Shown here: piece after piece, positions 4,744 to 54,532 of the stretch
Numbering within the stretch: position 1 is the stretch's first letter
Layout: every line of letters begins with the position of its first letter
Assembly: GCA_030765065.1 (NCBI GenBank)
Contig: CM060977.1
Coordinates: 95,683,795 to 95,747,794, forward strand
DNA length: 64,000 nt
Source of the DNA: Deroplatys truncata
Taxonomy: Eukaryota; Arthropoda; Insecta; Mantodea; Mantidae
Direction: 5' to 3'
Made by a program: the position numbers and the translations under genes
The notes under the pieces: generated by a model
What the model was told of the DNA's origin: nothing
Databases searched by the model: none
The model's input: only the letters and a program-made list of their open reading frames with translations

Positions 4744-5895
4744 TTAATTTCTCTACCACGTACCTAGTATGTAGGATGTGTTTATCGGAGGCGGACACCT
4801 CGCCACCGTCACTACGAACAGCCTGATCTATTGTGGCTACGCCCCCCCGGAGCAGGGATGAGGTAAAGGATCAGTAGAAAGTCGCAGGTTCACAGGCAGG
4901 CGCACAGAAGTCCCTAATATTTCCAGTTTGAGCACCCGCGCAGCAGAATCCCGAGAAAGAATCCCGAGAGAAGCGACGAAGCGACCTTAACGGGCGCGAC
5001 AATGCTCTCTGGCGTTCACAGGGAGAAATCGTTACAATGCGCAAGAAACTACGCCATCTTCCTGACACCGTCAACAGCTCAGGACCCAAAGACACACTTG
5101 AAACGTGAAAGGGAGAAATGAAATTAGAGGAATGGGGGGAAGAAGGAATAGTGGTACAATACTCCACCCTTCCATTCGCCTAGGTAACCAGAGGAAAATC
5201 ACGAAAAACCCTATGGTCAGAATGGGCAGTTACCGGGAATTGAATCCGGCAGTTCCGGGATCTCCAGAATACGGACCACAGAGTCTGCCGTCTGAACCAT
5301 CCCGCTCGGTCACCTAGTATGTAAGAGGAAGTATTGTCTTTCACCTAAAAATTAGAAATATGGATTTCACCACAAATACAATTACTTTGAGTTCCATTGA
5401 ACCCCCACCCCAAAGCAAACATTTCAGATCACATTTCTATGTTTATCTGTTTCTGTGAACAGAATAACTCAAAAATGAAAAGTCAGATAAGTACCAAACT
5501 TGGAATTTAAGATCAGTATCTTCCAAACGAATGACACGAAGATATTGAATAAAGTCCCCACCCCAGCCTAGACATATAGAAAGGTTTTCTAAATTTTAAA
5601 TTGTTTCTAAAATTACTGAAGCGATTCTGATTAAAATATATGTTTAAGGTACTTGCATGACAAAAAAAAACGCACTCTGGCATTTTCTGGGAATAGCCTG
5701 TGAAGTCCTCTTAATTCGTAAGAAAATTTATTTCGTATTGCATAATTGGTAAACGTTAAACGATAGACGAAAACGTACTATACAGAAAATGCAAATCTCT
5801 TTAAAATACAAAATTTATTCCAGTAACTTTTGTGCAATTAGTCATTTTGGGGATATACGTTATTATTGGCTTTAATTATTGTATTTTTTTCATTT
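4744..5895 (+). repeat. Rep850 copy split by SINE2
   Basis: The first bases are at 4744-4773 (TTTCTCTACCACGTACCTAG); the copy resumes at 5312 after a SINE and runs to about 5895. The join is exact once one copy of the 12-base target duplication is removed. It includes ACAGAATAACTCAAAAATG and a C-rich tract, and ends in TTTCAT before another Rep850 begins. Confidence 0.75.
4774..5311 (-). mobile_element. SINE2 retroposon, tRNA-derived, with 12-bp target duplication
   Basis: A GC-rich 538-bp block is flanked by ACCTAGTATGTA at 4762-4773 and 5312-5323. On the minus strand it begins ACCGAGCGGGATGGTTCAG, a tRNA-like A box, followed by a B box GGATTCAATTCC, then a conserved stretch equivalent to GGTTTTTCGTGATTTTCC. 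The body differs from SINE1 and carries a tail motif (CTAGGGACTTC-like, read from 4900-4915) shared with 9745-10143 and 16358-16706. It is an RNA polymerase III type retroposon that depends on a LINE for movement. Overlapping open frames in it are not genes. Confidence 0.8.
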
Positions 5896-6575
5896 ATACT
5901 TTTTCTATTACGTATAGAATTGCATTGCATTCCATCCAAAACTTCTAAAATAAAATTTCACCGGAAATATATGTTTTGAGGCGCCCTGAATCCAACTCGA
6001 CCATTTTTTAAAAAAGTGAGAATTGGAAAATTTGGAGGAAAAATGAAAGAACTCTGGATAAATGCCATAATTTGTTATTTCAGTTTAGTATCTTCCAAGG
6101 ATGCGAAACGAAGAAAATAACCCATCCCTAATTAACCTTTACATGGAACATTATTCGATTAAAATGCCATATATATAAGCTGTATACATGGCAAATAAAA
6201 TGTATATCTTGAATTTTCTGGGAATAGCGTGTTCATTTGGGAGGAATTGTGCACTCATGTACAACTAGTAAACATTAGGGATAGACGAAAACGTACACAC
6301 ACAAAATGTAGATGTCGCGATTTATTTCAAATACGTTTTTATGTAGCATAAGTTGTTTCTAAGATATCGGTTATTACAGGTTTTTATTGTTCAATACTTA
6401 TTGTTTTAAAGTTACATCGATTTTTAGTAGTTTTTCGTGATTGCATGGAAACAGTATGGAACACCTGACTATCGTAGTTCCCTTTGTATCTATAATGAAA
6501 TATGTAATGTAAATACATAGTAAAGAAATTAATCTGCAATAAAATAACCCATTCTCGTTTAATCAAAAAGTGTTA
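5896..6575 (+). repeat. Rep850 copy, subfamily a
   Basis: It starts at TTTTCTATTACGTATAGAAT, includes TTGAATTTTCTGGGAATAGC and the TTGTATCTATAATGAAAT segment, and reaches the reverse copy that begins near 6576. The CA-rich tract is almost absent here. Confidence 0.75.
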
Positions 6576-7375
6576 TATTCACATATTTATCCACCCTCTC
6601 AGATTATTATTACAAATGTTTATTTTCCTATCTACTTCATTTTACTCGAGATGAGCCTTTCCGGAAATGCATGTTACACATTTCGTTATATATAGATATA
6701 AAGGGAATAGCGATAGTAAAACGTTTAACAACCGGGCATATATGGTAGCTTTAAAATTACACCTTTTCCATGTAATCGCGAGAAGTAACTTAAAATCAAC
6801 AGGACTTTAAAAGAATTGGCTAAGTTTTGAACAATTCGAACTACTAATAACGGATATTTCGAAAATGGTTTAGTCACAAAAAGAAGTTATTTAAATAAAT
6901 TGTGTGTTTCAAAGGATTTAGATTTGTTTTGTGCAGTACACTTTTGTCTATCACTTAACGTAAACCAGGTATAGAAGATTATATAGATTTCCTTGGAAGC
7001 TATTCCCAGAAAATTTAAGATATACATTTTACTTGTCATGTAAATATATTTAATATATGGTATTTTAATCAAAGTATATAGAGCATTTTCAGAAAATCAA
7101 AGAATTGGAAAAATATTCCACGTAAAAGTAGTTTACGGTGTCGCCTCCATGTCGCACCTTTGGAAGGTAGTGAACATAAACACCAACTTTGGTAATTATC
7201 TCACATTTCCTTTTTGAGTTATACTGTTCACACACACAGACATTTTCTAAAACTGCTTTTTTTTATTTAGGAGCCACGAATCATGTATTTCCCGTGAAAT
7301 CTCGATATCGATGCTTTGGGTGGAATGCAATACCTTCTCTATGTACTGTGTGTACACGGTAGAGAAAGCAAAGAA
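6576..7375 (-). repeat. Rep850 copy, subfamily a, reverse
   Basis: The copy runs from TCACATATTTATCCACCCTC to CACGGTAGAGAAAGC. It contains the reverse of every landmark, with a short CACACACAGACA tract near 7231-7243. It forms a tail-to-tail junction with the forward copy to its left. Confidence 0.8.
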
Positions 7376-8271
7376 AAAATCTAATGCGTTGCACTCACAT
7401 GACTTTCTCTACTCCTGTACTCCTTCATGTTAATCAAGATAAACATTTGCAGAAACTATTTTAATGCTAATTTTCTTGTAGGTGCAAGGGGAATATGGTA
7501 GGCTATAAGCGACAGTCAAATTCTATGCTATGTGGAGTGTTCCATTCTCCTTGTATGTCCAGGACATGAAAAAAAATCTGATGTGTCGCACTCACATGAA
7601 TTTCTCTACTCTTGTAAAAACTATTTATAGAAACGCTTATTCTCCAACTACTTCATGTTAATCGGGATATCGAAATGTTAATCTTGTTACTAATTCTCTT
7701 CTAGGTGCAAGGGGAATATGGTAGGCTTTAAGTGACAGTCAAATCTTTTAAGAACCGGTTGCTATGTGGAGCAGTCCATTCTCTTTGCTTGTCCAGGACA
7801 TAAAAAGTAATTAACGAATTCCCATTCGAGAAAAAGTTTAACAAACAGTATCTCGAAAATGGTTCAATCCACAAAAAGAAAAGAAAGAAAAAAAGTATAT
7901 GACGTAAATTGTGTGTTTTAACGGGATCTACATTTTTTGTGTAGTAAAAGTTTGTCTATCTCTTATGGTTTACCAGTTATGCAAAAGTCGTTCACAATGA
8001 AGAATACTTTTGGAGATATTCCCAGAAAATTCGAGATATGCAATTTATTTGCCATAAATATGTCTTAAACTTATGGTATTTTATTCAAAATCATTGCAGC
8101 CATTTTTTGAGAAAATTAAAATTTTCGAAAAATGTTCCATGTAAAGGGTAAACTGGGGTTGGGGGATTTTGTTGAAAACCTTTGTTTCGCATCTCTGGAA
8201 GATACTGAACCTAAATATCAAGTGTGGTGTTTATCCGACTGTTCCTTTCTGAGTTATGCTGTTCACAGACC

Positions 8272-8327
<56 letters not shown>

Positions 8328-8500
8328 CACAGACAGACACACACAGACAGACACACACACGGACATGTTTCCAAAATGCTTTATATGCATTCCGTGCACC
8401 TCAAAACATGTATTTCCTGTGAAATCTTGGTATTGAATTTTTGGGTGGAATGCAATACTTCCCCTACTTACTATACGTAGTAGAGAAAGTAAAAAAGAAC
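7376..8500 (-). repeat. Two joined reverse Rep850 copies, subfamily b
   Basis: A partial copy (7376-7572) is followed directly by a full one (about 7573-8500). Both begin with AAAAAAATCTGATGTG-like sequence and TTTCTCTACTC, and both include GGTGCAAGGGGAATATGGTA and GTCCAGGACAT. The first stops at the GTCCAGGACAT segment, exactly where the second starts anew. The second carries a long CA array at 8273-8325 and ends with CTATACGTAGTAGAGAAAG. Confidence 0.8.
8273..8325. repeat. (AC)n microsatellite inside Rep850
   Basis: About 26 AC units without interruption, followed by a degenerate CAGACAGACACACA stretch to about 8362. It sits just past the GAGTTATGCTGTTCACAGAC landmark, the position used by most other Rep850 copies for their CA tract. 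Confidence 0.95.
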
Positions 8501-10365: not shown

Positions 10366-10496
10366 TATAGTTTCTCTACTACGTATAGCAATTAGAGGTG
10401 TTATATTTCACCCAAAAATTCCATATCGAGATTTGACCGGAAATATACTCCTTTAAAGGCATCTAGATTAAGAAAAAGCATTTTACGAAAAAGGTC

Positions 10497-10548
<52 letters not shown>

Positions 10549-11215
10549 TGTGTATATATGTGTAGGTGTCTGTCTCTTGCGTGTGTTTGTCTGTGAACAG
10601 CATAACTCAAAAACGAAAAGTACCAAACTTGGTAAGTATCTCCCAAGGATACGACACCAAGATTTTAAAGAGAATTACCCACCAACTATCCTTTACACGG
10701 AATATTTTTCGCACATTTTGATTTTACAGAATACCATACATATCTGTATGATAAACAAAATTTAAATCTTGAATTTTCTGGGAACAGCATTTGAAGCTCT
10801 CTTCATTTGAAGAAGTTTTGTACAATCTTGTGTAACTGGTAAACTACTACACAAGAAATGCTGATCTCTTTAAAACACATAATTTATTTCAAATATCTTT
10901 TTTGTGGTATACATCATTTCTGAGATATCCGTTATTAATGCTTCGAATTGTTCATTTCTTGGTCATTCTTTAAAATCCTTTCACATTCACTTGTTTCTCG
11001 TGATGTCAGTATGTGATTTTAAGGCCAGCATAGAGCGTCCAGTTCTTAAACATGTGACTATCGCTGTTCCCTTTGTATCTACTTATATAGCGAAATGTGT
11101 AATGTAGTTATTTCTACAAAAGGTTTAATTGGACTGAAGTGCAGTAAATAAGCTTTAGTAAGAATAGTTTGTGTACTCACTAATAAAGGATAGAGTGTAG
11201 AGAAACACATATGAA
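10366..11215 (+). repeat. Rep850 copy, subfamily a, nearly full length
   Basis: It begins TTTCTCTACTACGTATAGCA, has the TG array at 10499-10544, CAGCATAACTCAAAAACGAA, TTGAATTTTCTGGGAACAGC and the GCGTCCAGTTCTTAAACATG segment, and ends around GATAGAGTGTAGAGAAACAC. Confidence 0.85.
10499..10544. repeat. (TG)n microsatellite inside Rep850
   Basis: About 23 TG units, followed by an imperfect TG/TA continuation to about 10590. It lies immediately before GTCTGTGAACAGCATAACTC, the equivalent of the CA arrays seen in reverse copies. Confidence 0.95.
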
Positions 11216-11484
11216 TGTATAAAATCAGTCTTTTTGTGTAATAAGGTACATTCTATGTCTTACGGTTTATACATTTAAAAAAAGGCATTAATATACATTT
11301 TATCATGCAAATATTATAAACATATAGTACTTAAATCAAAATTAGAGCCATTTTTGAGAACATAAAAAATAACAAAACTCTTCCATGTAAGGAGTACTTT
11401 GTGGAGGAGTGATTTTCTTGAAAATGTTTGAGTCTCATCCTTTGAAGATATACTTAATTTAAATACAATGTTTGGTTCTTATAT
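11216..11484 (-). repeat. Rep850 fragment, reverse
   Basis: It contains TTTTTGTGTAATAAGGTACA, the TATAGTACTTAAATCAAAAT segment and GGAGTGATTTTCTTGAAAAT, then stops where the tandem duplication starts. Confidence 0.65.
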
Positions 11485-11772
11485 GACTTTTGTTTTTTGA
11501 ATTCTGGAGTTCAAATGCGTGCATTCAGGGTGAAACATAAGTTATTGCATTGTTTTAAACCAATTAAAGATTTATTTAAATGTAACATTTTTTTAGCGAT
11601 GATCATTTCCTGCGGAAATATTTTAGGTGACTTTTGTTTTTTGAATTCTGGAGTTCAAATGCGTGCATTCAGGGTGAAACATAAGTTATTGCATTGTTTT
11701 AAACCAATTAAAGATTTATTTAAATGTAACATTTTTTTAGCGATGATCATTTCCTGCGGAAATATTTTAGGT
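11485..11772. repeat. Exact tandem duplication, 2 x 144 bp
   Basis: 11485-11628 and 11629-11772 read as identical, each starting GACTTTTGTTTTTTGAATTC and ending GGAAATATTTTAGGT. Because 144 is a multiple of three, an open frame at 11497-11787 contains a 48-residue block twice, but nothing suggests this frame is a gene. Identity of the two halves means a very recent duplication or an assembly artefact. Confidence 0.95.
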
Positions 11773-17682: not shown

Positions 17683-18628
17683 GGTGTTACTTTAAATTGT
17701 ATAGCTTGAACATATAATAAGCTTTGGTTTTATTTTTAAAGCATTTATATTCTATATTGTCTAAAATATCCAAAAAGCTTCTGCATTTACGGGGAAGATT
17801 AAATGGCTAATATTGCCATTATGTACTGTGAATTCAGAACCACTTAATAAAAAACATTTTGTTGTGATACACTCACATATCCTTCTCTACTCCCTATCTT
17901 TTATTAGTGGGTATACAAAATATTTTCACTATAGGTAGCTTATTTTCCTATCTACTTCATTTTAATCAAAATAAACCTTTACAGAAATAGCTGCGTTACA
18001 CTTTCGTTATAGATACAAAGAGAACAGCGGTAATCAAATGTTTAAGAACTGGACACTATATGCTGGCTTTAAAATTTCATACTGTTTCCATGATATCGCG
18101 AGAAACACCTGAAAATCGATTGGACTTTAGGAGAATGAAATAGTAATAATCAATTCGAACCATTAATAATGGATATCTCAGAAATGACTTATGCCACAAA
18201 AAACCTTATTTGAACTGAATTGTGTGTTTTAAAAAGATTTACACTTTTTTTGTAGTATGTTTTCGTCTATCGCTTTACGTTTACCAATTAACATGATTGT
18301 ACAAAATTCCTCCCGAATGAAGAGGAGTTTACAGGCTATTCACAGAAAATTTAAAATATATATTTTATATGTGATGTAAATATCTTTAATATATGGTATT
18401 CTAATAAAAACATTGGAGCCATTATTTAGAAAATAAGAAATTTCGATAAATGTTCCATGTATAGGCTAATTGGGGACGGGAATTTTCTTAAACAGCTTGG
18501 TGTCGCATTGTTGGAAAATGCGAACTCAATGCCAAGTTTAATACTTAACTGACTTTTTGCTGTTGAGTTATGCTGTTCATGCACAGACGCACATACGGAC
18601 ACATAGACATAGTCGCACATACGGACAC

Positions 18629-19611: not shown

Positions 19612-19768
19612 CACACAGACGCACATACGGACACAGACACACACATGGACGTTTTATCTAAAAATGCTGCTTTTGGTCTCAAAACGTGTATTTCCAGTGA
19701 ACTCTCGAATTCCAATTTTTAGGTGGAATGAAATACCTTCTCTACCTACCATGTATGTAGTAGAAAAA

Positions 19769-20605
19769 ATTTTCTGATGTGATACATTCACATTGCTTTC
19801 TCTACCCTCCGTCGTTTATTATTGGGTATACAAATTATTCTTACACAGCGTAGTTTTATATACTGAGATAAAATAAACATTTGCAGCAATAGGGATATTA
19901 CAAATTTCGTTATAAACACTAACAGAATAGCGATAGTCAAATGTTTAGGAACTTGACGCTATATGCTGACCTTAAAATTCCATACTGTTTCTATGACATT
20001 GCTAGAAACAACGGAATGTTGAAAGCACTTTAAGAGAATAATCAAATGAACAATTCCAACCTTTAATAACGGATATCTCAGAAACGACTTATACCACAAA
20101 AATTAATTTTAAATAGATTGTGTGTTTTTAATAGATCTACATTGTTTTGAGTAGCACCTTTTCGTCTGTCCCTTAACATTTACCAGTTACACAAGATTGT
20201 ATAAAATTTCTTCCATATCAATTGGCCTTCACGAGCTATTTCCAGAAAATTCAAGATACACATTTTATTTGTATGTACGGTAATTTTAATCAAAATTTTA
20301 GAGCCACATTTTGGAAAATCAAAATTCTTGAAGAATGTTCCTGGGGACAAGTAGTTTCTTAAAAATTTTCTTGTCGCATGTTTGAAGGTACTGAACTTAA
20401 ATACCAAATTTGGTGTTGATCCGACTTTCGTTTTTGTGTTAGGTTGTTCACAGACACACAGACACACACACAGATAGACACAAGCTCATTTTTCTAAAAA
20501 TGCTTTGTTTAGTTTCAGGCTGCCTGAAATCATGTATTTCTAGTGAAATCTAGGTATCGAATTTTGGTGGAATGCACTGCTTTCCCTACTTATTACACTA
20601 AAAGA
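19769..20605 (-). repeat. Rep850 copy, subfamily a, reverse, full length
   Basis: About 837 bp, from TCTGATGTGATACATTCACA to CTAAAAGAGAAAGTAAAA, with all landmarks and a short CA tract near 20453-20480. It directly abuts the previous reverse copy head-to-tail. Confidence 0.85.
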
Positions 20606-21258
20606 GAAAGTAAAAGGCATTTTTAGACAAAAAAAGATGTCGGTGTGTCTGTGAACAGCATAATTTAAAAACGAAAGGTGGAATACACTCCAAACATGGG
20701 ACTCTTTACGATATACTTATTTTAAAAAAAAACGTCTGTAACGATTTGGATTAATATATTAAAGGTATTTACATGCCAAATAAACTGTTGATTTTGAATT
20801 TCCTGGGAATAGCGTTTGAACTCCTGTTTATTTGGAAAGAATTTTGTACAATGTTGTATAACTGGTAAACGTTAAGGGATAACCCACTACACAAGAAATT
20901 AGATGGGTTTAAAGTGCAATTTGAATAAATATTTTGTGGCTTCAGCCATTTTTGACATATTCGTTATTAAATGTTCGTCATTTTTAAGGTGCTTTCAACA
21001 TTCAGTTGTTTCTCGTGATGTCATGAAAACAGTATGGACTTTTAAGAAACGCATATAGTATGCAGTTCTTAAACTTTTGACTAGCGCTGTTCTCTTTGTA
21101 TCCTAACGAAACGTGTAATATAGCTATTTCTGCAAATATTTATTTGGATTAAAATGAAGTAGATAGAAAAATAAGCGTTAGTAGGAATGGTTTATATACC
21201 CACTAACAAGCTATAGAGGGTAAAGAAAATCATGTGAATATAGCAGATAAGATTTTTA
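20606..21258 (+). repeat. Rep850 copy, 5' truncated
   Basis: It starts near the TG tract position (GTGTGTCTGTGAACAGCATA) and continues to GAGGGTAAAGAAAATCATGT, so the first 150 or so bases are missing. It joins the reverse copy at its left, making an inverted pair. Confidence 0.8.
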
Positions 21259-22095: not shown

Positions 22096-23640
22096 TAAAA
22101 AAGAAATCTGATGTGTTATATTCACATGTCTTTCTCTACTCTTGTATAAAATATTTTTACAAACGCTTATTCCCCGTCTACTTCATATTAATCGAGATTA
22201 ACATTTTCAGAAACAATCTTATTGCTAATTTTCTTATAGGTTCAAGGGGAATATGGTAGGCCTTATGGGATAGTCAAATTTTTGTAGATGGGTAAGGCAT
22301 CTTTATTAGTTTCAAATTATGAAGTTATTACACAAGTATTTAGTGCATGGGTCATTGACCGTACATGCATATTTAAGATACAAGTAGGGTAACAAAATAA
22401 GCAACAGAAAAAGAAAACAAAACAAAATAGGAACAAGAACAAGGAAAATAGAGATAAATTACCTTCGCTTAACTAAATAAATTTGACCTAGCTTCGCGCA
22501 CTTTAGCCAAAAAATTTTCGATGTTTTGCCAGTTCCTCTGGTCAGCCAGTAGCTCTCAACATGCCAATCTCTTTCTAGAGGGACTTAAAATTTTTTCTTT
22601 GAGTTTACTCGTTCGCTTCTTCTCCCACTGTGCACATTCTACCAAAATATGTACCCAGTCCTCATCCAAATCGCAGAATGGGCAGATTCTCCTGCCAAAA
22701 TCGTCAGTATTTTTTCTGTGCGCTCCAGCCCCCCAGTCGAAATCATGGCATTCTCGATCTTTCCTTTCTTCCTAAATTAAGTATATGTGCCTCCTTACCC
22801 CAGTTCAATTTTATTTCATTTTCTATGGTTAGAGAAGGTCTAATTTCACAATCGGATTCTGTTTCCTGTTAGTTGATGTCTCTTAATCTTCTTTTGACAC
22901 CTTTCCATATGTTTTTGTCATTTGTTTCAGCTCTTTGCCATACTGACTCCATTCCTATTCTCCTCAAAGAGCTGCTTGCTATGTGGAGCATTCCATTCTC
23001 TTTGCATGTCCAGGACATAGAAAAACGAATAACGAATTTCCATTTGAGAGAAAGTATAAGTATTGGAAAATTCAAACAAGGAATATCTCTGAATTGTTCA
23101 CTCTATCCCCCCTCAAAAAAACTATATGACATAAGTTGTGTCTTTTAACAAGCTATACATTTTTTGTGTTAATAAAAAGCTTGTCTATCTCTTACAGTTT
23201 ACTAGTTATGCAAAAGCCATTCAGAAGAGAGGAGAAGACTTTTAGGGACATTGCCAGATAATTAAAGATATGAATTTTATTTGTCATGAAAATATCTTAA
23301 ATATATGATATTTTAATCAGAATCAATAGAACCATTTTTGAGAAAATTAAATTTTTAAAATCTGTCATTGTAAAGTTTAGTCTGATTTAGGAAATTTTCT
23401 TGAAAATTTTTGTATCTCATTGTTTAAAGACACTGAACCTAAATACCATTGGTATTTATTCGACTATTCTTTTTAGTTATGATGTTTACAGTCACATGGA
23501 CACAGCACGGACGTTTTTCTAAAAATGCTTTTTTGTAATTCAGGGGCCTCAAAACATGTATTTCCTGTGCAACCTTGGTATAGAATTTCTGGGTGGAATG
23601 CCATACTTACCCTGCTTACTATATGTAGTAAAAAAAGTAA
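22096..23640 (-). repeat. Reverse Rep850 copy, subfamily b, split by a LINE tail
   Basis: The left arm at 22096-22276 runs from GAAATCTGATGTGTTATATT through TCAAGGGGAATATGGTAGGC. The right arm resumes at about 22968 with GAGCTGCTTGCTATGTGGAG and CATGTCCAGGACATAG, and ends at TACTATATGTAGTAAAAAAA. Comparison with the unbroken copy at 7573-8500 places the insertion between the GTCAAATTTTT and GCTATGTGGAG segments. Confidence 0.8.
22277..22967 (-). mobile_element. LINE 3' fragment (C-terminal ORF2 remnant)
   Basis: Minus-strand translation near 22740-22590 reads CPFCDLDEDWVHILVECAQW, the cysteine/histidine-rich motif (CPxC...HxxxxC) found close to the C-terminus of many non-LTR retrotransposon ORF2 proteins. 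It continues as EKKRTSKLKEKILSPSRKR and then stops. Upstream (22970-22750) weaker similarity continues in more than one frame. Only the last few hundred bases were inserted, consistent with 5' truncation. The clade cannot be told from this fragment. Confidence 0.65.
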
Positions 23641-24425
23641 AAAAAAGGATCTTTACAAAAAGGTATATGTCTGTATGTGTCTAAACAGCATAACTCAAAA
23701 ACAAAAAGTAGGATAAGTCCCAAACTTGCTATTTGAGATATGAAGCTTCCAAAGATTTGAAACAAAGATTTTCAAAATATTCCTCACCCGAAACTACCAT
23801 TTTCATTGAACATTTTTCGTCATTTTTCATTTCTTAAACATGACTCTAATGGTTTTGATTAACATACCATATATTAAAGATATTTACGTACATGTCAAAT
23901 AACATGTCTATTTTTAATTTTCTGGAAATAGTATGTGAAGTTTTCTTCATTTGGACAGAATATTTTATAATCTTGTATAAATGTTAAACGTTAAACGATA
24001 GACGAAAAGATACTTCACAAAAACGTAGATCTCTAGTAAACACATATTTATTTCAAATAACTTATTTGTGCCTTAAGCCATTTTCGAGATATCCGTTATT
24101 AATTATTCGAATCGTTCAATACTTCTTTCATTCTTTTCAAATCCTTTCGATATTCAGTTGTTTGTCACAATGCCATGCAAAGAGTATGGAGTTTTAAGAC
24201 CAGTACATGGTGTCCAGTTCTTAAATATTTAACTATTGTTATTCCATTTGTATTTATAACGAAATATGCAATGCAGTAATTTCCGGAAGGTTTTATCTCG
24301 ATTAAAAGTTGTAAATAGAAAAATAAAACTTTCGTAAGAATACTTTCTATACCTGCTAATACACGATCGAAGGTAAGGAATGTCATGTGAGTATAACTCA
24401 TCATATATTTTTATGTTTTGTCTTG
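23641..24425 (+). repeat. Rep850 copy, subfamily a, 5' truncated
   Basis: It starts near GTATGTGTCTAAACAGCATA and includes AATTTTCTGGAAATAGTATG and TGTCCAGTTCTTAAATATTT. It ends at GGAATGTCATGTGAGTATAA. It faces the preceding reverse copy, so the two form another inverted pair. Confidence 0.8.
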
Positions 24426-30364: not shown

Positions 30365-31208
30365 GAAGTAAAAATTATCCCATGTGTTACATTCACATGG
30401 CATTTTCTGTTCTATGTTATTTATTGAGGGTATACAGACCATTCTTACTACATCCCATTTTTCTACCTACTTCATTATAATTGAGATAAACGTTTGCAGA
30501 AATAGCTTACAAGGAAACAGCGATAATCAAATGTTTCAAAATAGATCGTCATATGCTGGCCTTAAAATTCCATACTCCTTCCATGTCATCAGGAGAAACA
30601 GCTGGTTCTTCACAGACCTTAAAGGAATTCTAAAAGTATTGAACGTTTCGAATCTTCAATTAATAACGGATATCTCGGAAATGGTTAATGCTATGAGAAG
30701 TTAATTGAAATAAATGGTGTATTTTAAAGGGATCTACATTTTTGCGTGTGTGTTTGTCTATTATTTAAGTTTACTAATTATATAAGATTATTATAAAATT
30801 ATTCCAAATGAACAGGACTTCACTGGCTACTGTCAGAAATTTCAACATATACATTTTATTTGTCATGAAAATATTTCTAATATATGGCATTTTAATCAAA
30901 ACCGTTGGAATTATTTTTAAGAAAATCAAAATTTTGAAGAAGTTCCATCTAAAGAGTAAGTTGGGAAATTTGCTTGAAAATCACTCCATCCAACATAAAT
31001 ATGAAATTTGGTATTTGTCCGAATGTATGTTGTTTAGTTATGTTGCTCACATGCACACACACACACATATATATATATATATTTTTTTTTCTAATAATGC
31101 CTTTTTATATTCAGGGAGGTCCGTAACATGTATTTACGGAAATCTCGTTATGGAATTTTTGGGTGCAATACAAAACTTCCTCTGCTTAATGTAACTACGT
31201 AGTAGAGG
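30365..31208 (-). repeat. Rep850 copy, subfamily a, reverse, full length
   Basis: About 845 bp, from the ATGTGTTACATTCACATGGC end to AACTACGTAGTAGAGGAAGA. The microsatellite position holds CACACACACA followed by a short TA run (31054-31080). Confidence 0.85.
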
Positions 31209-31426
31209 AAGAAAAAACAGACTTAAAATTTCAACAGCTTATCGCTCATACTGATGGAAAAATGAAACAAACAGGCGAAATTCTCTTGGAAATGTAATAA
31301 TATACATACACAAATTACCTATCCTAATGACTTGAACCTGCTGTGTGGTTAGTATTTTGTATACTTAATTGTTTCTTATTCTTCTTCAACGGACTACGCT
31401 TCTGTTTTTACACACTAAGGAAGTCA
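31209..31426. other. Unassigned DNA before the satellite
   Basis: AT-rich, no recognised feature. Confidence 0.5.
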
Positions 31427-32484: not shown

Positions 32485-33119
32485 ATGTCGGGAATGGCGG
32501 TGAGGAAGAAAGAAATGAAATGTAGCAATGAAAGGGATGATAGGAGAATTTGCGGATCAAAGTATCTAATCCGCATTCCCTAGCGAGCGAGGAAGACCAC
32601 CAAAAGACCTTCGTTCATATTGGTCTCTCCAGAGTTACAGGAAATTCAATAGGAACTAAATGGACTTAAAGGGTTGCATGAAAATATTTCAATATAAAAA
32701 TTATATATATTGTTTGTGTAGGGAAAATGCGTGAGAATCTTTGCTCTACAGCCTTTTAAAATGTTGGACATAGAATTAGGAAGGAAGGAGACTTAACGCC
32801 TCGAACTACGAAGATATTTTGGCCTAAACTCCCAGTGGGGCACCGGGGTGGGAGGAAAGAGGTGTAGAGGAGATCAAGAAGCGGCTGGATCAAGAAGCTT
32901 GACAGAGCAGAGGGTAGGATCCTTCCTTTTACCAGATTGAAATTCCCCGGATGACAGCTGGTACAACCGGCTCCCTTCCGCTGCAGGCTTGCACATCCCA
33001 CTGGGGGGCTTGGGACACGAAGACCGCCCCATCACGAAATCTTAACAGATCGTCCTTTTCCCCTGCCAAGCAGCGCCGAGACCCACCGATTCATTACAAT
33101 CCTCAAACAGACAAGTAGA
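32485..33119. other. Mostly unassigned; includes a weak SINE-like piece
   Basis: About 32500-32620 (AATGAAAGGGATGATAGGAG, then CATTCCCTAGCGAGCGAGG) resembles the reversed head-proximal part of the SINEs, as at 33140-33220. The rest, including an 81-codon minus frame at 32756-33001, shows nothing recognisable. Confidence 0.4.
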
Positions 33120-34667: not shown

Positions 34668-36095
34668 TACTTTCTCTAGGGCGTGCTTACCTACAGTAAT
34701 AGGTAACGGTAAAAAACGAACGGAGGAGCCCATGCAACCGGGGCAGAGCATCTCAATTGGGCGGCAACGGTCCTTTTTATTTCTACCGTGATCTTTGGGA
34801 GGGAGGGATGAGGGAAGATTTCCGAAGAGTGACCAGATACGGATGACAACGGGCACAGACATGAACGGGGCCCTTAGCGTTTCCACTTCGAACGCGTCCA
34901 ACGACGCACGGCCCAACCACAAGCCTCCATACTTACGACGGTCACCCCTGTGCGGCACACTCAGAGTCGGAACCTAACTGAACAGTCCTGCTACGACGTC
35001 AGGGAAGAATCCTGTAATGAGGGCACAACCACCGCCCAGTCACAACCATCGGAACACCGTGGCCTGGTCCTACATTCCTGAAACAACGAAGATGATGGTA
35101 ACATAAAATCGTGATAAAGAGGAACCACCTCACAATTCACCTGTTGACCCGGGGAAATCACGAAGAATCCCTGGGATAAACCGTCGTCACGGATCGTTCC
35201 TGGGATCTCTCGAATACGAGTCACACACGTTACCGTGGCGCCAACTTGCTGAATTCCTACCTACAGCAAGTAGAGGATATATTATATTCTACCCTTAAAT
35301 TAGATATGTACGTTTCGAGGCTTCCTGAAACATAAAAAGGATATTTTTAGAAGAACTATGTGAGTGGTTGTGTGCATGCGTGTGTCTGTATGATCAGCTT
35401 AGCTCCAAAACGTAAACTTCTTTAAATACCACATGTGATATTTAAGTTCAACATCGTCCAAGGGTGTAACACGAAGAATACCCCCTTAAATTACCTTTAC
35501 ATATTTATATGAAAAATGATTTTTCCCCTCAATATTGGTCGTATACATATAAATTAAAATACAAAATGAAAAGGCGTTTTCATGACCAATAAAATGTGTA
35601 TCTTGAATTTTCTGGGAACAGCCTGTAGAGTTCTCTTCATTAGCAAGGAATTTTGTATAACTTTGTATAAATGTTAAACGTTAAGTGATAGACAAAAATG
35701 TACTAGACAAAAAATTTAAATACCTTAAAAAACAATATATTTCAAATAACTTTGAGTCGTATACATTTCCGAGTTATTGGTTAATAAGTTTGGAATTTTT
35801 CAATTCATTCTTTAAGGCCCTGTCGACATTCAGCTATTTCTCCGATTGCTTTAAAGCAGCATGGAATTTTAAGGCCAGCATATAGCGTCCAGTTCTTAAA
35901 TGTTTGATTATCGCTATTCCCTTTGTATCTAAGTCCGTAATGCAGCTATTTCAGAAAAGGCTTATCCCAGTTAAAACGCAGTAGATAGGAAAATGATCTT
36001 TCGTAAGAATAACGTGAATACCACTAATAAGCGATAGATGGTAGAGAAAATCGTGTGAATGTAACAAAGTTTACATTTCCTGTGAAATACCGATA
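34668..36095 (+). repeat. Rep850 copy, subfamily a, split by SINE1
   Basis: The terminus TTTACTTTCTCTAGGGCGTG lies at 34668-34687. A SINE interrupts after TACCTACAG, and the copy resumes at 35258 and runs to ATGGTAGAGAAAATCGTGTG near 36055. A small extra Rep850 piece (TTCCTGTGAAATACCGATAT) follows, into which the next mariner jumped. Confidence 0.8.
34697..35257 (-). mobile_element. SINE1 retroposon with 9-bp target duplication
   Basis: TACCTACAG flanks the insert at 34688-34696 and 35258-35266; one mismatch later the match continues for two more bases. The head is at the right (B box remnant GGAACGATCCGTG on the minus strand, then CCCAGGGATTCTTCGTGATT), and the tail is at the left. Collinear with 15812-16348. 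Confidence 0.82.
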
Positions 36096-38879: not shown

Positions 38880-39275
38880 TAGTAAGAAATCTAATGCGTT
38901 AGAACCACATAAAGTTCTCTACCCTCCATCGTTTGGGTATACACATGTTTCTTACGAAATTAATTTTTCTATCTACTTAATTTTAATACAGATAAACATT
39001 TGCAGAAATAGCTTCATTACACATTTTGTTAGAGTAAACAGACAACAGAGATAATCAAATGTTAAAAAAACTGGAAGGAATAAGCCGATCTTCAAATTGC
39101 GTACCCTTGTATGACATCGCAAGAAACAATTGAAAATACACAATTTAAAAGAATAATAAAGCATCGAACAATTCAAGCCATTAATAACGGATATCTCGGA
39201 AATGTTAAAAAAAATTTATTTTAAGTAAATTGCATGTTTTGAAGAGATGTAATTCTTTTGCGTAGTTTTAGGTGC
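38880..39275 (-). repeat. Rep850 fragment, subfamily a, reverse
   Basis: It runs from AATCTAATGCGTTAGAACCA through the CAGATAAACATTTGCAGAAA segment to the GAAGAGATGTAATTC region; the rest is missing. Confidence 0.75.
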
Positions 39276-40830
39276 ATTTTTATTTTCTGCACCACGTACA
39301 CAGTAGTTAGAATACGTATTGAAATCCACGCAAAAATTAGATACCGAGATTTCACCATAAATACATGTTTAGAGACGCCTGAATCCCCCTCCAAAAGATT
39401 TTCAGAAGAAGGTCATTGTGTATGTCCATATGTCTTAATATCAAACATTTTTCGAAATTTGTATTTTAGAAAAGTTAATAAGCATTTTGATTAAAATATC
39501 ATACATTTAAGATATTTACATGGCAAATAAGTTGTATATCTGAATATTCTGAGAATAGCCTGTGAATCGATTTTGTGTAATCGGTAAACATTAAGCGATA
39601 GACAAAAACGTACTAAGCAAACATTGTAGTTCTCTCTAAAACACGTTATTTATTTTAAATAATTTTTTACCGCATAAACCATTTCCAAGATATACGTTAT
39701 TAATTGTTCGAGTTGTTCAACATTTCTTTATTATTTAAAGTCCTGTTTATTTAAAACCAGTATATAGCATTCATTGGTTAAACATTGGACTATCGCTATT
39801 CTCTTTGTAACTGTAGGCATAACGAAATGTGTAATACAGCTATTTCTCTAAAGCTTTATCTCGTTTAAAATGAAGAAAAACAAATTTTCGTAAGAATAAT
39901 CTTTATAAACACTAATAAACGATAGCATAACGAAATACATGTGAATATGACTCATAATATTTTCACTTTCTCTACTACATACCTATAGTAAGTAGGGGAA
40001 GTATTGTATTCCATTCAAAAGTTCGACTGAGGTTTCACCGGAAACACATGTTTTAAGGTGCCCTGGATCCTAATGAAGCATTTTTGGAAACATGTCCGTG
40101 TATGTGTGTATCTGTCTGTGAACAGCATAACATAAAAACGAAAATTCGGATAAATACCAAAATTGGTATTTGAGTTTAGTATCTTCCAGGTATACAACAC
40201 CAAGATTTTCAAGAAAATTCCCCCACCCCAGACTAAACTTTATAGGGGAAATGTTTCTTAAATTTCGATTTTCTCAAAAATGGCTCTAAGAATTTTGATT
40301 AAAGTATCATATGTTTAAGATATTTTTATGGCAAATGAAATTTATGTCTGGAATTTTCTGAGAATGTGCTCAAACGTCCTCTTCATTCTGAATGACTTTC
40401 ACATAACTGGTAAACAATAAGAGGTAGATAAAATTTTACTTCACAAGCAATGTAGATGTTTTTAAAATACACAATTTATGTCATATACATTTTTTTGTCC
40501 AGTGAACCATTTCCAAGGTATTCCTTGTTATTTGTTTGAATTTTCTAATACTTACATTTTTTCTCAAATGGAAATTTGTTATTCTTTTTTTATGTCGTGG
40601 ACATGCAAAGATAATGGAATGCTCTACATAGAAACCAGCTCTTAAAACATTTGACTATCGCTTAAAGCCTACCATGTTCCCCTTGCACCTAAAAGAAAAT
40701 TAGCAGTAAGATGACTTCTGCAAATGTTTATCTCGATTAACATGAAGTAGATGGAGAATAAGCGTTTGCAGAGTAATTTGTACAAGAGTAAAGAAATCCA
40801 TGTGAGTGCACACATTAGAATTTTTTCACT
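39276..40830 (+). repeat. Two forward Rep850 copies in tandem
   Basis: The first (39276-39962, subfamily a with internal deletions) runs from TTTTCTGCACCACGTACACA to AATACATGTGAATATGACTC. The second (39963-40830, subfamily b, near full length) runs from ACTTTCTCTACTACATACCT to AGTAAAGAAATCCATGTGAG. The copies abut head-to-tail. Confidence 0.8.
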
Positions 40831-44189: not shown

Positions 44190-45725
44190 CGTGTTTATCT
44201 CAGAAGTGAATTATGTCACAAAAAACTTAATTTGAAATAAACTGTATGTTTTAAAGAGATCTACATTTTTTGTGAATTACGTTTCCGTCTGTCGCTTTAA
44301 CATTTTCAGTTATACAAGTTAATATGAAACTTCTTCCAAATGAAGTATATTTTACATGCTATTCCCAGAAAATTCAAGATGTACTTTTTTGTTGCGTAAA
44401 TATTTACATTACGGTATTTTAATCCAAACCGTTAGAGACATTTTTAGAAAATCAAATCAAACTTTTCCAGGTAAAAAGTGTATTTTGGGGTAAAGGGATC
44501 TTCTCGAAAATATTCATGCCGCATCTTTGGAAGCTATTGAACTTAAATACCAAGTTTGGGTTTTTATCCGACTTCTCCTTATTGAGTTATGTTGTTCACA
44601 GAAAAACATACACACACACACACACACACACGAACCTTTTTCTAAAAATGTTTTTTTTTCCTTTCTCTACTACGTATAGTAAGTAGGGAAGTATTGCATT
44701 CCCCCCCCAAAACAAAAATTCAATACCGGGATTTCATCAGAAATACATGTTTGAGCTGGCCTGAATCCAAATAAAGCATTTTTGGAAACATGTCCACGCG
44801 CGCGCGCGTGGTGTGTGTGTGTGTCTGTGAACAGTATAACTCAAAAAATAAAGTCGGATAACTACCAAACTTGGTATATTAGCTTAGTATCTTCCATGGA
44901 TGCGTCACGAAGATTTTTAAGAAAATCTTCCCAACCCAGACTACCCTTTCCATGGAACATTTTTGGAAAATTTTGATTTTTTCAAAAATGTCTTTAACAA
45001 TTTTGTTTACAATATCATATATTTAAGATATTTCCATGGCAAATGAAATATACATCTTGAATTTTCTGGGAATCGCGCCAAAAGTGCTCTTTATGAATGA
45101 CTTTCACATCTGGTAAACCGTGAGAGTTAGACAAAGTTTTACTACACAAAACATTTTGATCTTGTTAAAACACACAATTTAGGTCACATATACTTTTTTG
45201 ATCTAGTGACCCATATCTGAGATATTCCTTGTCATTTTTTCGAATTTGGAATACTTATAATTTTTATTAAATGGGAATTCGTTATTCGCTTTTTTATGTT
45301 CTGGATATGCAAAGAGAGTGGAATGCTCCACATAGCAACCAGCTCCTAAAATATTTGACTATCGCTTAAAGCCTACCATATTCCCCTTGCACTTAAAATA
45401 AAATTAGCACTACGATACTTTCTGAAAATGTTTAACTCGATTAGCATGAAGTGTACGGAGAATAAGCATTTATAAAAATAGTTTCTATATGTGTAGAGAA
45501 AGTCATGTGAGTGCAGCACATCCGATTTTGTGGATCTGGGTGCCTCGAAAGCTATATTTCGGTGAACTGTCGGTATCGAATTTTTGGGTGGAATGCAATA
45601 CCCTCTATACCTACTATGTAGAAAAGCAATATGCTTCGTAAAAATACTTGTAGAGGCTATTTGGGATTAAATTATAGCAAGTAGAGAAAGTCATGCGAAT
45701 TAAACACATCAGATTTCTTTTTTCC
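44190..45725. repeat. Rep850 copies: reverse, forward, then a reverse fragment
   Basis: The reverse piece, 44190-44655, includes a CA tract at 44607-44629. A full-length forward subfamily b copy at about 44656-45530 starts TTTCTCTACTACGTATAGTA and ends GTGTAGAGAAAGTCATGTGA, with a CG/TG tract at 44796-44826. A reverse fragment, 45531-45725, carries GGTATCGAATTTTTGGGTGG. The first two form an inverted pair. Confidence 0.8.
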
Positions 45726-47829: not shown

Positions 47830-48790
47830 TATTATAACTTGGTATTTAGGTTCAGTACCTTTCAAAGATTTGACACGAAGACTTACAAAAAAAAAATATT
47901 CCCCACTCCAAAATACTCTTTACGTGGAATATTTTTCAAAGTCTTACATCTACTTAAAATAGGCACTAGGACTTTGATTAAAACGCTACATATAAGTTAT
48001 TTATATGACCAAAAGATGTATATATTGAATTTTCTGGAATTTTACTTTCTCTACCACGTATAGTAAGTAGGGGAATTATTGTATTCCACTCAAAAATTTG
48101 ACACCGAGATTTTACCGGAAAAACATGTTTTGAGACCTCCTGAATCCAAAGCAAAGTATTTTTGGAAACATGTCCGTGAATGTGCCTGTGTGTCTGTGAG
48201 CAGCATAACTCAGAAACGAACAATCGGATACACACCAAACTTGGTATTTAGGTTCAGTATCTTCCAGAGATGCGACACGAAAGTTTTCAAGAAAATCCCC
48301 CCATTCCAGATTACCTTTTACATGGACAATTTTGTAAAATTTTTATTCTCTCAAAAACAGCTCTAACGATTTTGATTAAAGTATCACATGTATAAGACAT
48401 TTTTATGGCAAATAAAATGTAGATCTTGAATTTTCTGGGAATGTCTCCAAAGTATTCTTCATTGTGAACTAATCTTGTATAACTGGTAAACCACAAGAGA
48501 TAGACAAACTTTAAAACACAAATATGTAGATCGCGTTAAAATACACAATTTATGTCATATATTTTTTTTGTTGAGTGAACCATTTTCGAGATATTGCTTG
48601 TTATTCCATTAAATTTTCCAATACTTGTACTTTTTCTCAAATGGGAGTTTGTTATTCATTTTTTTGTCCTAGATATGCAAAGGGTATTAATCTGTGACAA
48701 TGAGAATGGTGCTGGACATAGCAACCAAATATTAAGAGATATGTATATGCCTAAAGGCTACTGTATTTCTATATTTCCCTTGCAAATACA
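47830..48790 (+). repeat. Rep850 fragment and forward subfamily b copy
   Basis: A middle fragment (47830-48045, with GGTTCAGTACCTTTCAAAGA) is followed by a copy starting TACTTTCTCTACCACGTATA at about 48048. It extends to the CCCTTGCAAATACAAAAC region near 48790, where it meets a reverse copy. Confidence 0.8.
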
Positions 48791-49425
48791 AAACAAGGGG
48801 AACACAGTACGCCTTAAGCGATAGTCAAATATTTTTAGAAATGATCGCTTTGTGTAAAATGTAATTCTCTTTGCATGTCAAGAACATAATAAAAGAACAA
48901 CAAATTCTCAGTTGAGAAAAATTGTAAGTATTTGAAATTTTAAGAAATAACAAGGAAAAACTCCAAAATGGTTCACTTTACAAAAAAAAATGTTTGCAAA
49001 ATATAGTGTGTTTTAACGAGATCTACATTTCTATGTTTTAAAATATTGTCTATCTCTCGCGGTTTACCAGTTATGCAAAAGGCGTTCCGAATGAAGAGGA
49101 CTTTTAGAGATATCCCCAGAAAATTCAACATATACATTTTATTTGCCATATAAAGGTCTTAAACTTATGATACTTTAATCAAAATTGTTTAAGCCGTTTT
49201 TGAGAAAATAAAAATTTTCGAAAAATGTTCCATGTAAGGGGTGGGGGAATGTTCTTGAAAACTTTCTTGTCTCATCCCTGAAATATATTAAACCTAAATA
49301 CCAAGTTTGGTGTTTATCCGACTTTTCGTTTTTGAGTTATGTTTTTCACAGCAGACAGACACATACAACAGACACACAAGACATACACACGGAAATGTTT
49401 CCAAAAATGCTTTATTTTTTATGTC
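48791..49425 (-). repeat. Reverse Rep850 copy, partner of an inverted pair
   Basis: It begins with the CAAGGGGAACACAGTACGCC junction and contains GTCAAGAACATAATAAAAGA, CGGTTTACCAGTTATGCAAA and the GTTATGTTTTTCACAG tract. It ends near the ACATACACACGG region around 49400. Confidence 0.8.
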
Positions 49426-50009
49426 CTGGACATGCAAAGAGAATGGAATGCACCAAATAGCAACCAGCTCTTAAAAGATTTGATTATTGCTTAAAGTCTA
49501 CCATATTTACCTTACACCTACAAGAAAATTATCAGTAAGATAGAGTCTGCAAATGTTTATCTGGATTAACATAAAGTAGATGGAGAATAAGCGTTTGTAA
49601 ATATAGATTGTACAAGAGTAGAGAAAGTCATGTGAGTGTAACACATCACATTTTTTAATTTTTTTATATGGGCCATTTTCGAGATATCCATTATTAACGC
49701 TCCGAGTTGTTCAATACTTTATCGTTCTTTCAACGTTCTTCGATTTTCAACTGTTTCTCGCGATTGCATGGGAACAATATGGAATTTTAAGGCCATTATA
49801 TGCCTAGCGTCTAGTTCTTAGACATTTGACTATCGCTGTTCCCTTTGTATCTATAACGAAATATGTAATATAGCTATTATGGGAAGGTTAATTATATAAT
49901 AAAATGATGAAAATATAAAAAACCTTTCGTAAGAATAATTTGTATACCCACTAATAAGCGATAGAGGGTACAGAATGTCTTGCGAATGTATCCTATCAGA
50001 TGTTTAAAC

Positions 50010-50048
<39 letters not shown>

Positions 50049-50430
50049 TCTCACTGATACTTTCAGACTCTGGGGAGGATCGCTAGTAATGCTGGCAATG
50101 GGATAGTTCCCATTCTCCAGCCGGGAATCGAACCTGGGATCTGCCTATAGTTTGTTTTTAGTTATCACAATTCAATAGTAATATGTTATATGGCTTTTTA
50201 ATTGAATTTGCATATCCAATTACTAGATTACTTGTGTCCATAGGAGTTTTAATTAATACAGAGTAATTAATTTGCGGTACCTGATTAATTAATCACACAC
50301 GGATGTTTCTTTAAAAATGGTTTTCTTTGGATTAAGGGGCCTCAAAACATTTATTTACTGTGAAATATCGGAATGAAATTTGTAATACCTTCTCTGTCTA
50401 GTGCTTACGTGGTAGAGAAAGTAAAATTCG
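49420..50430. repeat. Rep850 pieces around a CA array and a SINE-like insert
   Basis: There is a forward subfamily b 3' part (49420-49665, ending GTAGAGAAAGTCATGTGAGT), a forward subfamily a 3' part (about 49666-50012), a (CA)n array at 50017-50046, and a reverse terminus at 50299-50430 ending CTTACGTGGTAGAGAAAGTA. Confidence 0.75.
50048..50298 (-). mobile_element. SINE-like insertion between CA tracts
   Basis: The minus strand carries CAGGTTCGATTCCCGGCTGG (B box) around 50120-50139. The segment interrupts the CA tract of a Rep850 copy. The A box is not convincing and the body is AT-rich. It could be a degraded tRNA-derived SINE. Confidence 0.4.
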
Positions 50431-52000: not shown

Positions 52001-52755
52001 AGAAAAAGAAAAATCGGATGTATTGCATTCACATGACTTCTCTACCCTCTAATGAGTAAACAAATTATCTCCTTCATTTTGGACGAGCTTAAACCTCTCC
52101 TAGCATAGATGCATTACACATTTCGTTATATATTTAATGGGAATAGCGATAGTCAAATGATTTAGAACTGAACTTATGGCCTTAAAATTCCACTCTCTTT
52201 CCATAACATTGCAAGAAACACCCAAAAATTGAGTGGACTTTAAAGGCATGCCTAAGTGTTGAACAATTCCAACCATTAATAATTTTTAACTCATAAATGG
52301 CTGATACCACAAAAAAGTTATTGTAAATAAATTCTGTGTTTTAAAGAGATCTACATTTATTGTCCAGTACGTTTTAGCCTATTGCCTAACGAATACTTTA
52401 AAGGCTATTCCTAGAAAATTCAAGATACACATATTTGATATGTAAAAATCTTTAATATATGGTATTTTAATCAAATTTGTTTGAGCCATGCTACAGAAAA
52501 TAAAAGGTTTCGAAAAATGTTCCATGTAAAGGTTAATTTGGGGAGCGAGATTTTCTTGAAAATTTTTGTGTCATATCCTAGGAAGGTGCTGAACCTAAAT
52601 ACCAAGTTTGGTATTTATCCCACTTTTCGTTTTTGAGTTATACTGTTCAAAGATACACACATAAATAGGCATTTCCTGTGAAATATCGGAATCGAATTTT
52701 GGGGTAGAATGTAATGCCTTCTCTACGTACTACTTACGTAGTAGAGAAAGTACAA
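52001..52755 (-). repeat. Rep850 copy, subfamily a, reverse, full length
   Basis: It runs from AAATCGGATGTATTGCATTC to TACTTACGTAGTAGAGAAAG with all landmarks and a reduced CA tract near 52650-52665. It is one of the most complete copies. Confidence 0.85.
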
Positions 52756-53195
52756 ATGAATATCTTAACAGAAGTTTTAAATAGATCGTTAAATTTTTGT
52801 GTGCAGTATATGCTTTACGTTCTAAGTGGTAACAAAGTCAAAGCAATCTAAAGAAAAGTGTGGATTTTTGGACGTTAACAGATAAATTTCTTAAATAGCC
52901 AAACAACAACATACACACCACCACAATATTCTCCTAAAAGCAATGTTCACAGTGCGTCTCTTGAGCAGTGGATACAGTATATTCGGGCTGTTTCATGCTT
53001 CTACCATTTACTTGGCGATCAGCACGAGCTGAAAGCACTGTTGTTGCGGTTTGACCGCTAATTGCACCAGTGATTATATACATGCCTCACAGCAGGCAGC
53101 TAACAAGACGTGAAACTTCTGTGAATCTCAAACCATAGTGCACCTACCTCTAGAGATTTCTCTTTCCGTCAAAGTATCTTTCAGACATTTCGTTT
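52756..53195. other. Unassigned DNA
   Basis: No gene or recognised repeat. Confidence 0.5.
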
Positions 53196-54532
53196 TTTAC
53201 TTCCTCTGCCACGTACATAATAGGTAGAGGAAGTATTGCATTCCATCCAAAATACCGGTACCGAGATTTCACCGGAAATACCTTTCGAGGCCCCTTAAAC
53301 CATTTAAAGCATTTTTAGAAAAAAGTCCTGTTTGTTTCTGAACAGCATAACTGAAAAACGAAAAGTCAGATAAATCCCAATCTTGGTACTTAGATTCCAC
53401 ACCTTCCAAAGATACGAGACGAAGATTTTCAACGAAATGCCCCACTTCAAATTACCCTTTACGTGGAACATCTTTAGGAATGTTTAACTTTCTGAAAACT
53501 GGCTCTAACAATTTTGATTAAATACCATATATTAAACATATTTACAATTAAATGTGTATGTTGAATTTTCTGGAATTAGCCTGTGAAGTCCTTTTCATTC
53601 AGAAGGACTTTTGTATAATCTTGTATAACTGGTAAACGTTACACGATAAACGAAAACATGCTACAGATAAAAACCACAAACTATTCCCAAAAAATTCAGG
53701 ACACACATTGTATTTTCATGTAAATTTGTTTCATATATGATATTTTAATCAAAATCGTTAGTACCATTTTTTAGAAAATCAAAATTTTAGAAAATGTTCC
53801 GTATAAAGGGTAATTAGAGGTAGGAGATTTTGTTGAAAATGCCGTGTCGCATCCTTGGAAGATAGTAAACTGAAATACCAAGTTTGATATCTATACGACT
53901 TTTCGTTTTTGAGTTTTGCTGTTCAGAGACATACAGACAGACATATAAAACACAGACATACATACGGGCATGTTTCCAAAAATGCCTTATTTGGATTCAG
54001 GGAGCTTCAAAACATGTTTAACCGGTGGAATCTAGGTACTGAATTTTTGCGTGGAATGCAATACTTCCCCTACTTATTATATAACTAGAGAAGTAATAAA
54101 GCTTTAGTAAGAATAGTTTTTATAGCCGCTAATAAACGATAAGACAGTAGAGAAAGCTAAGTGAATGTATCGCATCAGATTTTTTAGAAAAAGCTACACG
54201 TGCGTGTGTGTGAACTGCATTACTGAAACGAAGATTTGGATAAACACTAAACTCGGTATTGATGTTCAGCACCTTCCAAGGATACGACACGAATATTTTC
54301 AAGAAAATCCCCCCACCTAAACTACCGTCTATATAGATCATTTTTCGATTTTCTAAAAAGCGGCTCTAACGATTTTCATTAAAATACCGTATGTTCAAGA
54401 TATTTTATCACAGAATGTATATCATTAATTTCCTGGTTATAACCTGTAAAGTCCATTTCATTCAGTAGGTGCTTTGTATAATGTTGTATAACTGGTTAAA
54501 CTCTAAGCCATAAACAAAAACGAAAAAAGAAT
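53196..54532. repeat. Rep850 inverted pair plus trailing copies
   Basis: A forward copy (53196-53675, ending at the ATAAACGAAAACATGCTACA region) meets a reverse copy (53676-54095, ending ATAACTAGAGAAGTAATAAA). A forward 3' end (54096-54180, ending with ATGTATCGCATCAGATTTTT) and another forward middle part (54181-54532) follow. A mariner interrupts the last. Confidence 0.8.

Follow-up and report, generated by a model that had tools for sequence, protein, structure and literature searches.

The 64,000-bp window analyzed here (the whole stretch, C3:95683795-95747794, in a 4.29-Gb assembly of 818 contigs) comes from the mantis Deroplatys truncata, and much of it is made up of copies of one repeat, Rep850. 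Rep850 is very probably a HINE, that is, a non-autonomous, DINE-1-like Helentron of the rolling-circle type. This reading follows from its fixed ends, its T-run target, the lack of target duplication and the occurrence of a protein-coding partner element with the same ends. The initial annotation had not recognized the repeat as a named family; its structure fits the HINEs as PMC4067079 describes them, and the partner is present in the same genome.

Rep850 was captured with a profile of 880 positions, built from window copies together with random genome pieces. The refined profile gave 52 matches covering 19,936 of the 64,000 window bases (a first profile, made from three window copies, had given 50), these matches being fragments rather than copies. 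In the reversed window two matches were seen at E ≤ 1e-3, and 38 reversed genome pieces gave none at E ≤ 1e-4. The earlier proposal that one repeat family fills much of the window is clearly borne out, and the family extends beyond the span first assigned to it (4744 to 54532): 45 of the 52 matches lie inside that span and seven outside, five in 1-1404 and two in 60504-63866. The start of the span needs correcting, as only the tip of a copy occurs there (about 4746-4773), and 4774-5311 is an insert resembling a short interspersed nuclear element (SINE). For junctions and termini the sample consisted of the window and 38 genome pieces, with 149 profile matches in all, and its 28 complete copies measured 483-982 bp. 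No stop-to-stop frame longer than 138 aa was found in six complete or near-complete window copies, in agreement with the earlier statement that the repeat lacks coding capacity. Rep850 is thus a non-coding interspersed repeat whose ends are defined, as a HINE should be.

The ends of Rep850 are fixed, with TTTTT followed by ACTTTCTCTAC at the 5′ side and GTAGAGAAAGT, a hairpin and CAGATTTTT at the 3′ side. Fifty-eight of the 149 matches begin at the model start (position ≤3) and 56 finish at the model end (≥875), thereby providing the common termini that had been named as a check on the family. Junctions printed from the window and the first 20 genome pieces (49 left, 44 right) show the same arrangement. 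On the left they read TTTTT-A-CTTTCTCTAC, with T in 45 of 49 at −2, in 42 at −3 and in 43 at −5, and A in 44 of 49 at −1; on the right they read roughly CATGTGAnTGTAACACATCAGATT and then T in 41/44, 40/44 and 42/44 at +1 to +3. The 5′ subterminal inverted repeat (subTIR) is an 11-bp sequence at the very terminus, followed by an imperfect palindromic partner. Allowing ≤2 mismatches, it was present in 54 of 58 heads versus 0.4% of random 20-mers, and the 3′ subTIR in 49 of 63 ends versus 2.9% of random 80-mers, a contrast with chance that is somewhat flattering since the ends were chosen by a profile that includes the motifs. Of the 58 placeable ends (five more were unplaceable), 25 have a 3′ subTIR that stops 24 nt short of model position 880, the most frequent arrangement, and the distance of this subTIR to the 3′ end is about 27-38 nt depending on the measuring point; the corresponding distance in the mite elements is 38-60 bp (PMC4067079). 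Near the 3′ end a stem of ≥5 bp occurred in 37 of 63 ends versus 6.3% of shuffles, providing the palindrome typical of a HINE. The inverted end motif reported earlier is therefore real and not symmetric, being terminal at the 5′ end and subterminal at the 3′ end. With subTIRs of 11-15 bp, the 5′ one terminal and the 3′ one tens of nucleotides inside, this asymmetric layout is that of the Helentrons and HINEs in PMC4067079.

Before the 3′ subTIR lies the segment by which at least two subfamilies had been proposed. Types A and B were indeed found among 63 ends (32 B, 23 A and eight unclassified; in the window only, five B, 11 A and five unclear), both being defined by this 3′ segment alone. When 51 long copies were clustered into two groups, only five split off and the A/B types were not recovered.

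Evidence on the identity of Rep850 also comes from its partner. A Helitron_like_N search of the whole genome, with 150 of 291 candidates scored, gave at least 152 matches, and among the matches listed there were at least 30 open frames of ≥1,000 aa, 18 of them ≥2,000 aa. One copy of the partner element (C9, L047), about 10.4 kb long, was read through. Its frame at L047:692-7603 encodes a Rep/helicase/endonuclease protein of 2,303 aa in which Pfam recognized PIF1 (1.8e-28), Helitron_like_N (1.2e-27), DUF6570 and, near the N-terminus, Herpes_teg_N. Rep and a PIF1-type helicase are thus joined in one protein, as in Helentrons, and the last 283 aa match Exo_endo_phos_2 (2.9e-6), corresponding to the C-terminal apurinic/apyrimidinic (AP)-like endonuclease of these elements. 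The Rep motif of the partner, VEFQMRGSPHEH, carries an S, and the S in RGSPHxH is a sign of Helentrons (PMC4067079). As a side observation, the same frame contains a run of repeats of about 20 aa (REDEEYKKSERKRNKEYMEQA), and its N-terminal Herpes_teg_N match is protease-like.

The partner also has the ends of Rep850. It starts with a Rep850 head (model 1-638), followed by a second head (1-746) and by internal pieces in either orientation; at the 3′ end it has model 843-880, where 34 of 35 letters from GTAGAG on equal the Rep850 consensus. The subTIRs of the two are identical at 11 of 11 positions at both ends, and the published rule for a common family is ≥11 bp of identical subTIRs (PMC4067079). 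Four of four partner copies (C9, C1, C4 and C13, the last three compared at both ends only) begin and end with the same letters and have different flanks. The C4 copy interrupts a Rep850 copy precisely between positions 639 and 640 of the model, which provides an exact empty site, and the C13 copy lies directly after a Rep850 3′ end. A doubled 5′ head, running to model ~638 and then from 1 again, was seen in L047/L048 and also at L011:7435-8986 and C1:57941573-57943067, which hints that some non-coding copies derived from a protein-coding element with a doubled head.

One alternative is that Rep850 belongs to the canonical Helitrons, with 5′ TC, 3′ CTRR and an A|T target. Both kinds of element have Helitron_like_N and PIF1 domains, and neither kind makes a target duplication. 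Rep850, however, has the ends ACTTTC and CAGATTTTT, carries subTIRs and inserts into T-runs, and its partner has S rather than L between G and P in the Rep motif and shows the C-terminal endonuclease match, all of which makes a canonical Helitron very unlikely.

The insertion sites of Rep850 provide a further line of evidence. It had been stated earlier that no constant target duplication could be fixed, and in fact 0 of the 28 complete copies have a flanking repeat with ≥2 non-T bases; the exact adjacent repeat averages 3.07 nt versus 3.22 (sd 0.20) with the flanks shuffled. When five nested insertions were compared with uninterrupted relatives, which serve as empty sites, four were found in or at a T-run. 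Insertion into TT or T-rich sequence without modification of the target is what characterizes HINEs. These sites speak against a miniature inverted-repeat transposable element (MITE), a cut-and-paste non-autonomous DNA transposon with terminal inverted repeats (TIRs) and a target duplication. Such an element would account for the 11-12 bp inverted motif near both ends, the lack of coding capacity and the high copy number, but not for a motif placed at the very terminus of one end and subterminally at the other, nor for a partner that shares its ends and encodes Rep/helicase, its Pfam matches including no DDE transposase. A MITE is hence hardly credible, and the earlier suggestion of a non-autonomous DNA element holds in the broad sense and fails for ordinary cut-and-paste TIRs, the subterminal repeats being asymmetric and accompanied by a 3′ palindrome. 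A retroposon, either a SINE or the tail of a long interspersed nuclear element (LINE) with the T-run as a poly-A read backwards, would explain a T-run at one end, an internal microsatellite and the high copy number, but can practically be dismissed given T-runs and fixed ends on both sides, no variable-length duplication and a Rep/helicase partner.

Certain observations weigh against the HINE reading or against the link with the partner examined. The Exo_endo_phos_2 match, at 27.6 bits, only just exceeds the Pfam cut-off of 27.4 and is missing from the nine families that the whole protein gave at 1e-3, and no separate RPA frame of ≥150 aa occurred among the frames listed in L047. With default filters, the profile search was blank in L047, the 3′ match appearing only with the filters off. 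The folding energy of six end pieces was mostly unremarkable, with z values of +0.26 to −1.18 in five and −3.55 in one, and one of the five nested sites (L009_5035) is without about 16 bp at the target. Finally, the last 60 bp of the partner are 67-74% like four Rep850 copies (41/61 to 46/62), below the 80% that defines a subfamily, though not HINE status as such (PMC4067079), and the partner lacks the type A and B segments that precede the final ~40 nt. By these rules the partner belongs to the same family as Rep850 but to another subfamily; because of the 67-74% identity and the missing A and B segments, the direct parent of Rep850 probably belongs to another subfamily than the partner examined.

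As a HINE, Rep850 would depend on a Helentron protein acting in trans. The protein of the partner, or that of a sister subfamily, would recognize the shared ends, namely the 5′ subTIR ACTTTCTCTAC and the 3′ subTIR GTAGAGAAAGT with the short palindrome and the T-run. It would then nick the element and release one strand through rolling-circle replication, and this strand would be inserted into a T-run without target duplication. We infer catalysis and the single-stranded intermediate from what is known of the family, and Rep850 may have been mobile recently.

Rep850 has T-runs of its own near model positions 105 and 638, and new copies therefore often occur inside old ones or end to end with them; this is also why the window contains mosaics. 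The claim that copies often join each other directly was correct, and the direct joins mostly result from insertion into T-runs within older copies, along with some head-to-tail joints. An exact tail-to-head joint, CACATCAGATTTTTACTTTCTCTAC, is present in both L009 and L017. Copies and fragments of Rep850 in the window include the following.

1..169, plus: fragment, model 477-648, outside the span first assigned
699..917, plus: 3′ fragment, model 665-877, type A, outside that span
5311..5890, plus: copy, model 13-606, its head tip at about 4746-4773 beyond the SINE-like insert
5899..6544, plus: copy, model 1-786
6570..7368, minus: near-complete copy, model 1-872
7378..7573, minus: 3′ part, model 637-880, 9 bases from the head of 6570-7368
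7575..8489, minus: complete copy, type B, its alignment broken by a long microsatellite (matches 7575-8298 and 8328-8489)
10371..11228, plus: complete copy, type A, with a microsatellite inside (matches model 2-163 and 144-877)
17860..18612, minus: copy, model 129-876, type A, its head at 19614-19768 past an insert of ~1 kb
19614..19768, minus: head, model 2-163, probably of copy 17860-18612
19773..20610, minus: complete copy, model 1-878, type A
20612..21254, plus: copy, model 106-212 and 284-880, type A, abutting complete copy 19773-20610
22105..23637, minus: copy in two matches (698-880 and 1-701) around ~680 bp of non-family sequence, nested at model ~103-106 in the plus copy 22039-22101/23639-24405
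23639..24405, plus: outer copy, model 103-878, type A
30377..31211, minus: complete copy, model 1-879, type unclear
35255..36066, plus: near-complete copy, model 8-871, type A
38889..39266, minus: partial copy, model 490-879, type A
39284..39959, plus: copy with an internal gap, model 2-160 and 289-878, type A
39966..40821, plus: complete copy, model 1-878, type B 3′ end
44196..44658, minus: older copy, model 104-571, one half of a copy split by the insertion 44661-45527
44661..45527, plus: complete copy, type B, nested in the older minus copy at model ~104-108
45526..45628, minus: older copy, model 3-108, the other half, beside the insertion 44661-45527
48045..48800, plus: copy, model 1-747, without the 3′ part
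48778..49418, minus: copy, model 103-740
49414..49651, plus: 3′ part, model 636-879, type B
49659..50001, plus: 3′ part, model 544-879, type A
50294..50421, minus: head, model 1-137
52012..52750, minus: complete copy, model 1-880, type unclear by score (A-like by eye)
53200..53728, plus: copy, model 1-545
53639..54090, minus: inverted partial copy, model 5-465
54092..54181, plus: 3′ end, model 802-880, type A
54181..54522, plus: partial copy starting at model 114, immediately following a 3′ end
60504..60853, plus: fragment, model 503-865, outside the span first assigned

The window copies are mostly old, as is evident from their distances to the consensus, the median Kimura two-parameter (K2P) distance being 0.23 in the window (40 matches) versus 0.19 in the sampled pieces. 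The length-weighted mean was 0.21 over 111 matches of ≥150 positions, and the closest pairs among the 51 long copies are ~5% different.

The share of Rep850 in the genome was estimated from the 38 pieces, with the window excluded; 20 were taken at random below the known coordinates of 12 contigs and 18 at round positions, and contigs C7, C11, C13 and C15 are absent from them. Rep850 makes up about 19% of the genome by this estimate, with a bootstrap over pieces of 12-26%, or 0.51-1.11 Gb of 4.29 Gb. The share is far from even, amounting to 22% off contig C16 (34,424 of 157,000 bases in 22 pieces) versus 2.6% on this 707-Mb contig (2,519 of 97,000 bases in 16 pieces), with a permutation p of 0.00065. 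A window copy used as genome query gave 22,304 first-look candidates, and among the best 40 of these there were 39 non-self places (43 non-self rows), 30 of which match the query from base 2 to 869 or 870; one of the 39 lies on C16, which holds 16.5% of the genome. Similarly, among the matches listed, C16 has none of the 30 long Helitron-type frames (P 0.0045 under random placement), though at least 16 rows from it contain other, mostly broken, Helitron-type matches.

This bias against C16, which draws on modest samples and best-of lists, is the least expected part of the findings. C16 is the largest contig seen and is poor in Rep850, and contig numbers and sizes prompt the guess that it could be the X chromosome, in a karyotype of X0 type with 15 autosomes such as many katydids have. 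It is conceivable, if doubtful, that one Helentron lineage, of which open-framed protein-coding copies persist, built about one-fifth of the genome and was largely shut out of C16, plausibly the X, by a chromosome-specific barrier to rolling-circle transposition, for example if the element moves in germ cells that keep that chromosome condensed.

Several other elements occur in the window. The SINE-like insert at 4774-5311, of ~540 bp, lies in the head of a Rep850 copy, has the 12-bp repeat ACCTAGTATGTA on both sides and, by eye, contains a tRNA-like B-box on the minus strand. A genome search with window positions 4744-5600 gave 40 matches, and the 39 non-self ones all fall within query positions 18-581, which is this insert, so they were rejected as Rep850 copies. 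The best non-self matches of the insert lie on C16 in 21 of 39 cases, the opposite of Rep850. At 18613-19613 another Rep850 copy holds an insert of ~1 kb bordered on either side by the same ~14 nt (CGCACATACGGACA), possibly a remnant of long terminal repeat (LTR) type, as judged by eye from its TTGGCTCCCAAACGTGGGGCT-like stretches. Tandem repeats include an array of 14 copies of a 76-bp unit at 31422-32487 and two copies of a 144-bp unit, with 100% matches, at 11484-11772. Remnants with a Tc3-type transposase helix-turn-helix (HTH) are found at 12454-12888 and 43827-44180. The window has 20 open reading frames of ≥110 aa, and a Pfam scan of six of them gave two matches to HTH_Tnp_Tc3_2 and four frames without a match. 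An Rfam scan of the window at gathering scores gave no match, and ARAGORN found no tRNA in it.

A formerly unnamed repeat has now been classified, with a partner in hand, and mosaics that resemble complex rearrangements are explained as nesting in T-runs. If the sampled share of 12-26% holds, one Helentron lineage would account for some 0.5-1.1 Gb of DNA. The long open Helitron-type frames (at least 30 of ≥1,000 aa) make this genome a possible system for the study of Helentron movement, and the scarcity on C16 makes a chromosomal barrier testable.

The kind of element is already known, and it is the amount and the chromosomal bias that are of interest. HINEs, or DINE-1-like elements, and Helentrons occur in many invertebrates according to PMC4067079. 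Rep850 and its partner resemble HINE-Mo and Helentron-Mo of Metaseiulus occidentalis in the palindromic subTIRs, terminal at the 5′ end and tens of nucleotides inside at the 3′ end, in the short palindrome before the 3′ end and the microsatellites of some copies, and in the T-rich target, the lack of target modification and the Rep/helicase/endonuclease partner (PMC4067079). They differ in their end sequences, in the doubling of the 5′ head in the partner and in that no RPA frame was found here; moreover, identity to the partner is 84-99.9% in two HINE subfamilies of the mite (PMC4067079), whereas the 3′ segment of Rep850 is missing from the partner examined here. The DINE-1/INE-1 elements of Drosophila are likewise non-autonomous Helentrons with subTIRs, a 3′ stem-loop, a microsatellite and a TT target; in addition, DINE-1 carries a further inverted repeat and a core sequence (PMC4067079). 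As for abundance, rolling-circle elements are reported to constitute 7-20% of gomphocerine grasshopper repeatomes (PMC7486953), 17-22% of morabine grasshopper assemblies (PMC7754599, whose main text does not contain the word Helentron) and 8% in Gomphocerus sibiricus (PMC12693501). The grasshopper Helitron figures refer to the whole class (PMC7486953, PMC7754599), in contrast to the single lineage measured here, and the share of Rep850 is thus striking for one lineage while having parallels for the class.

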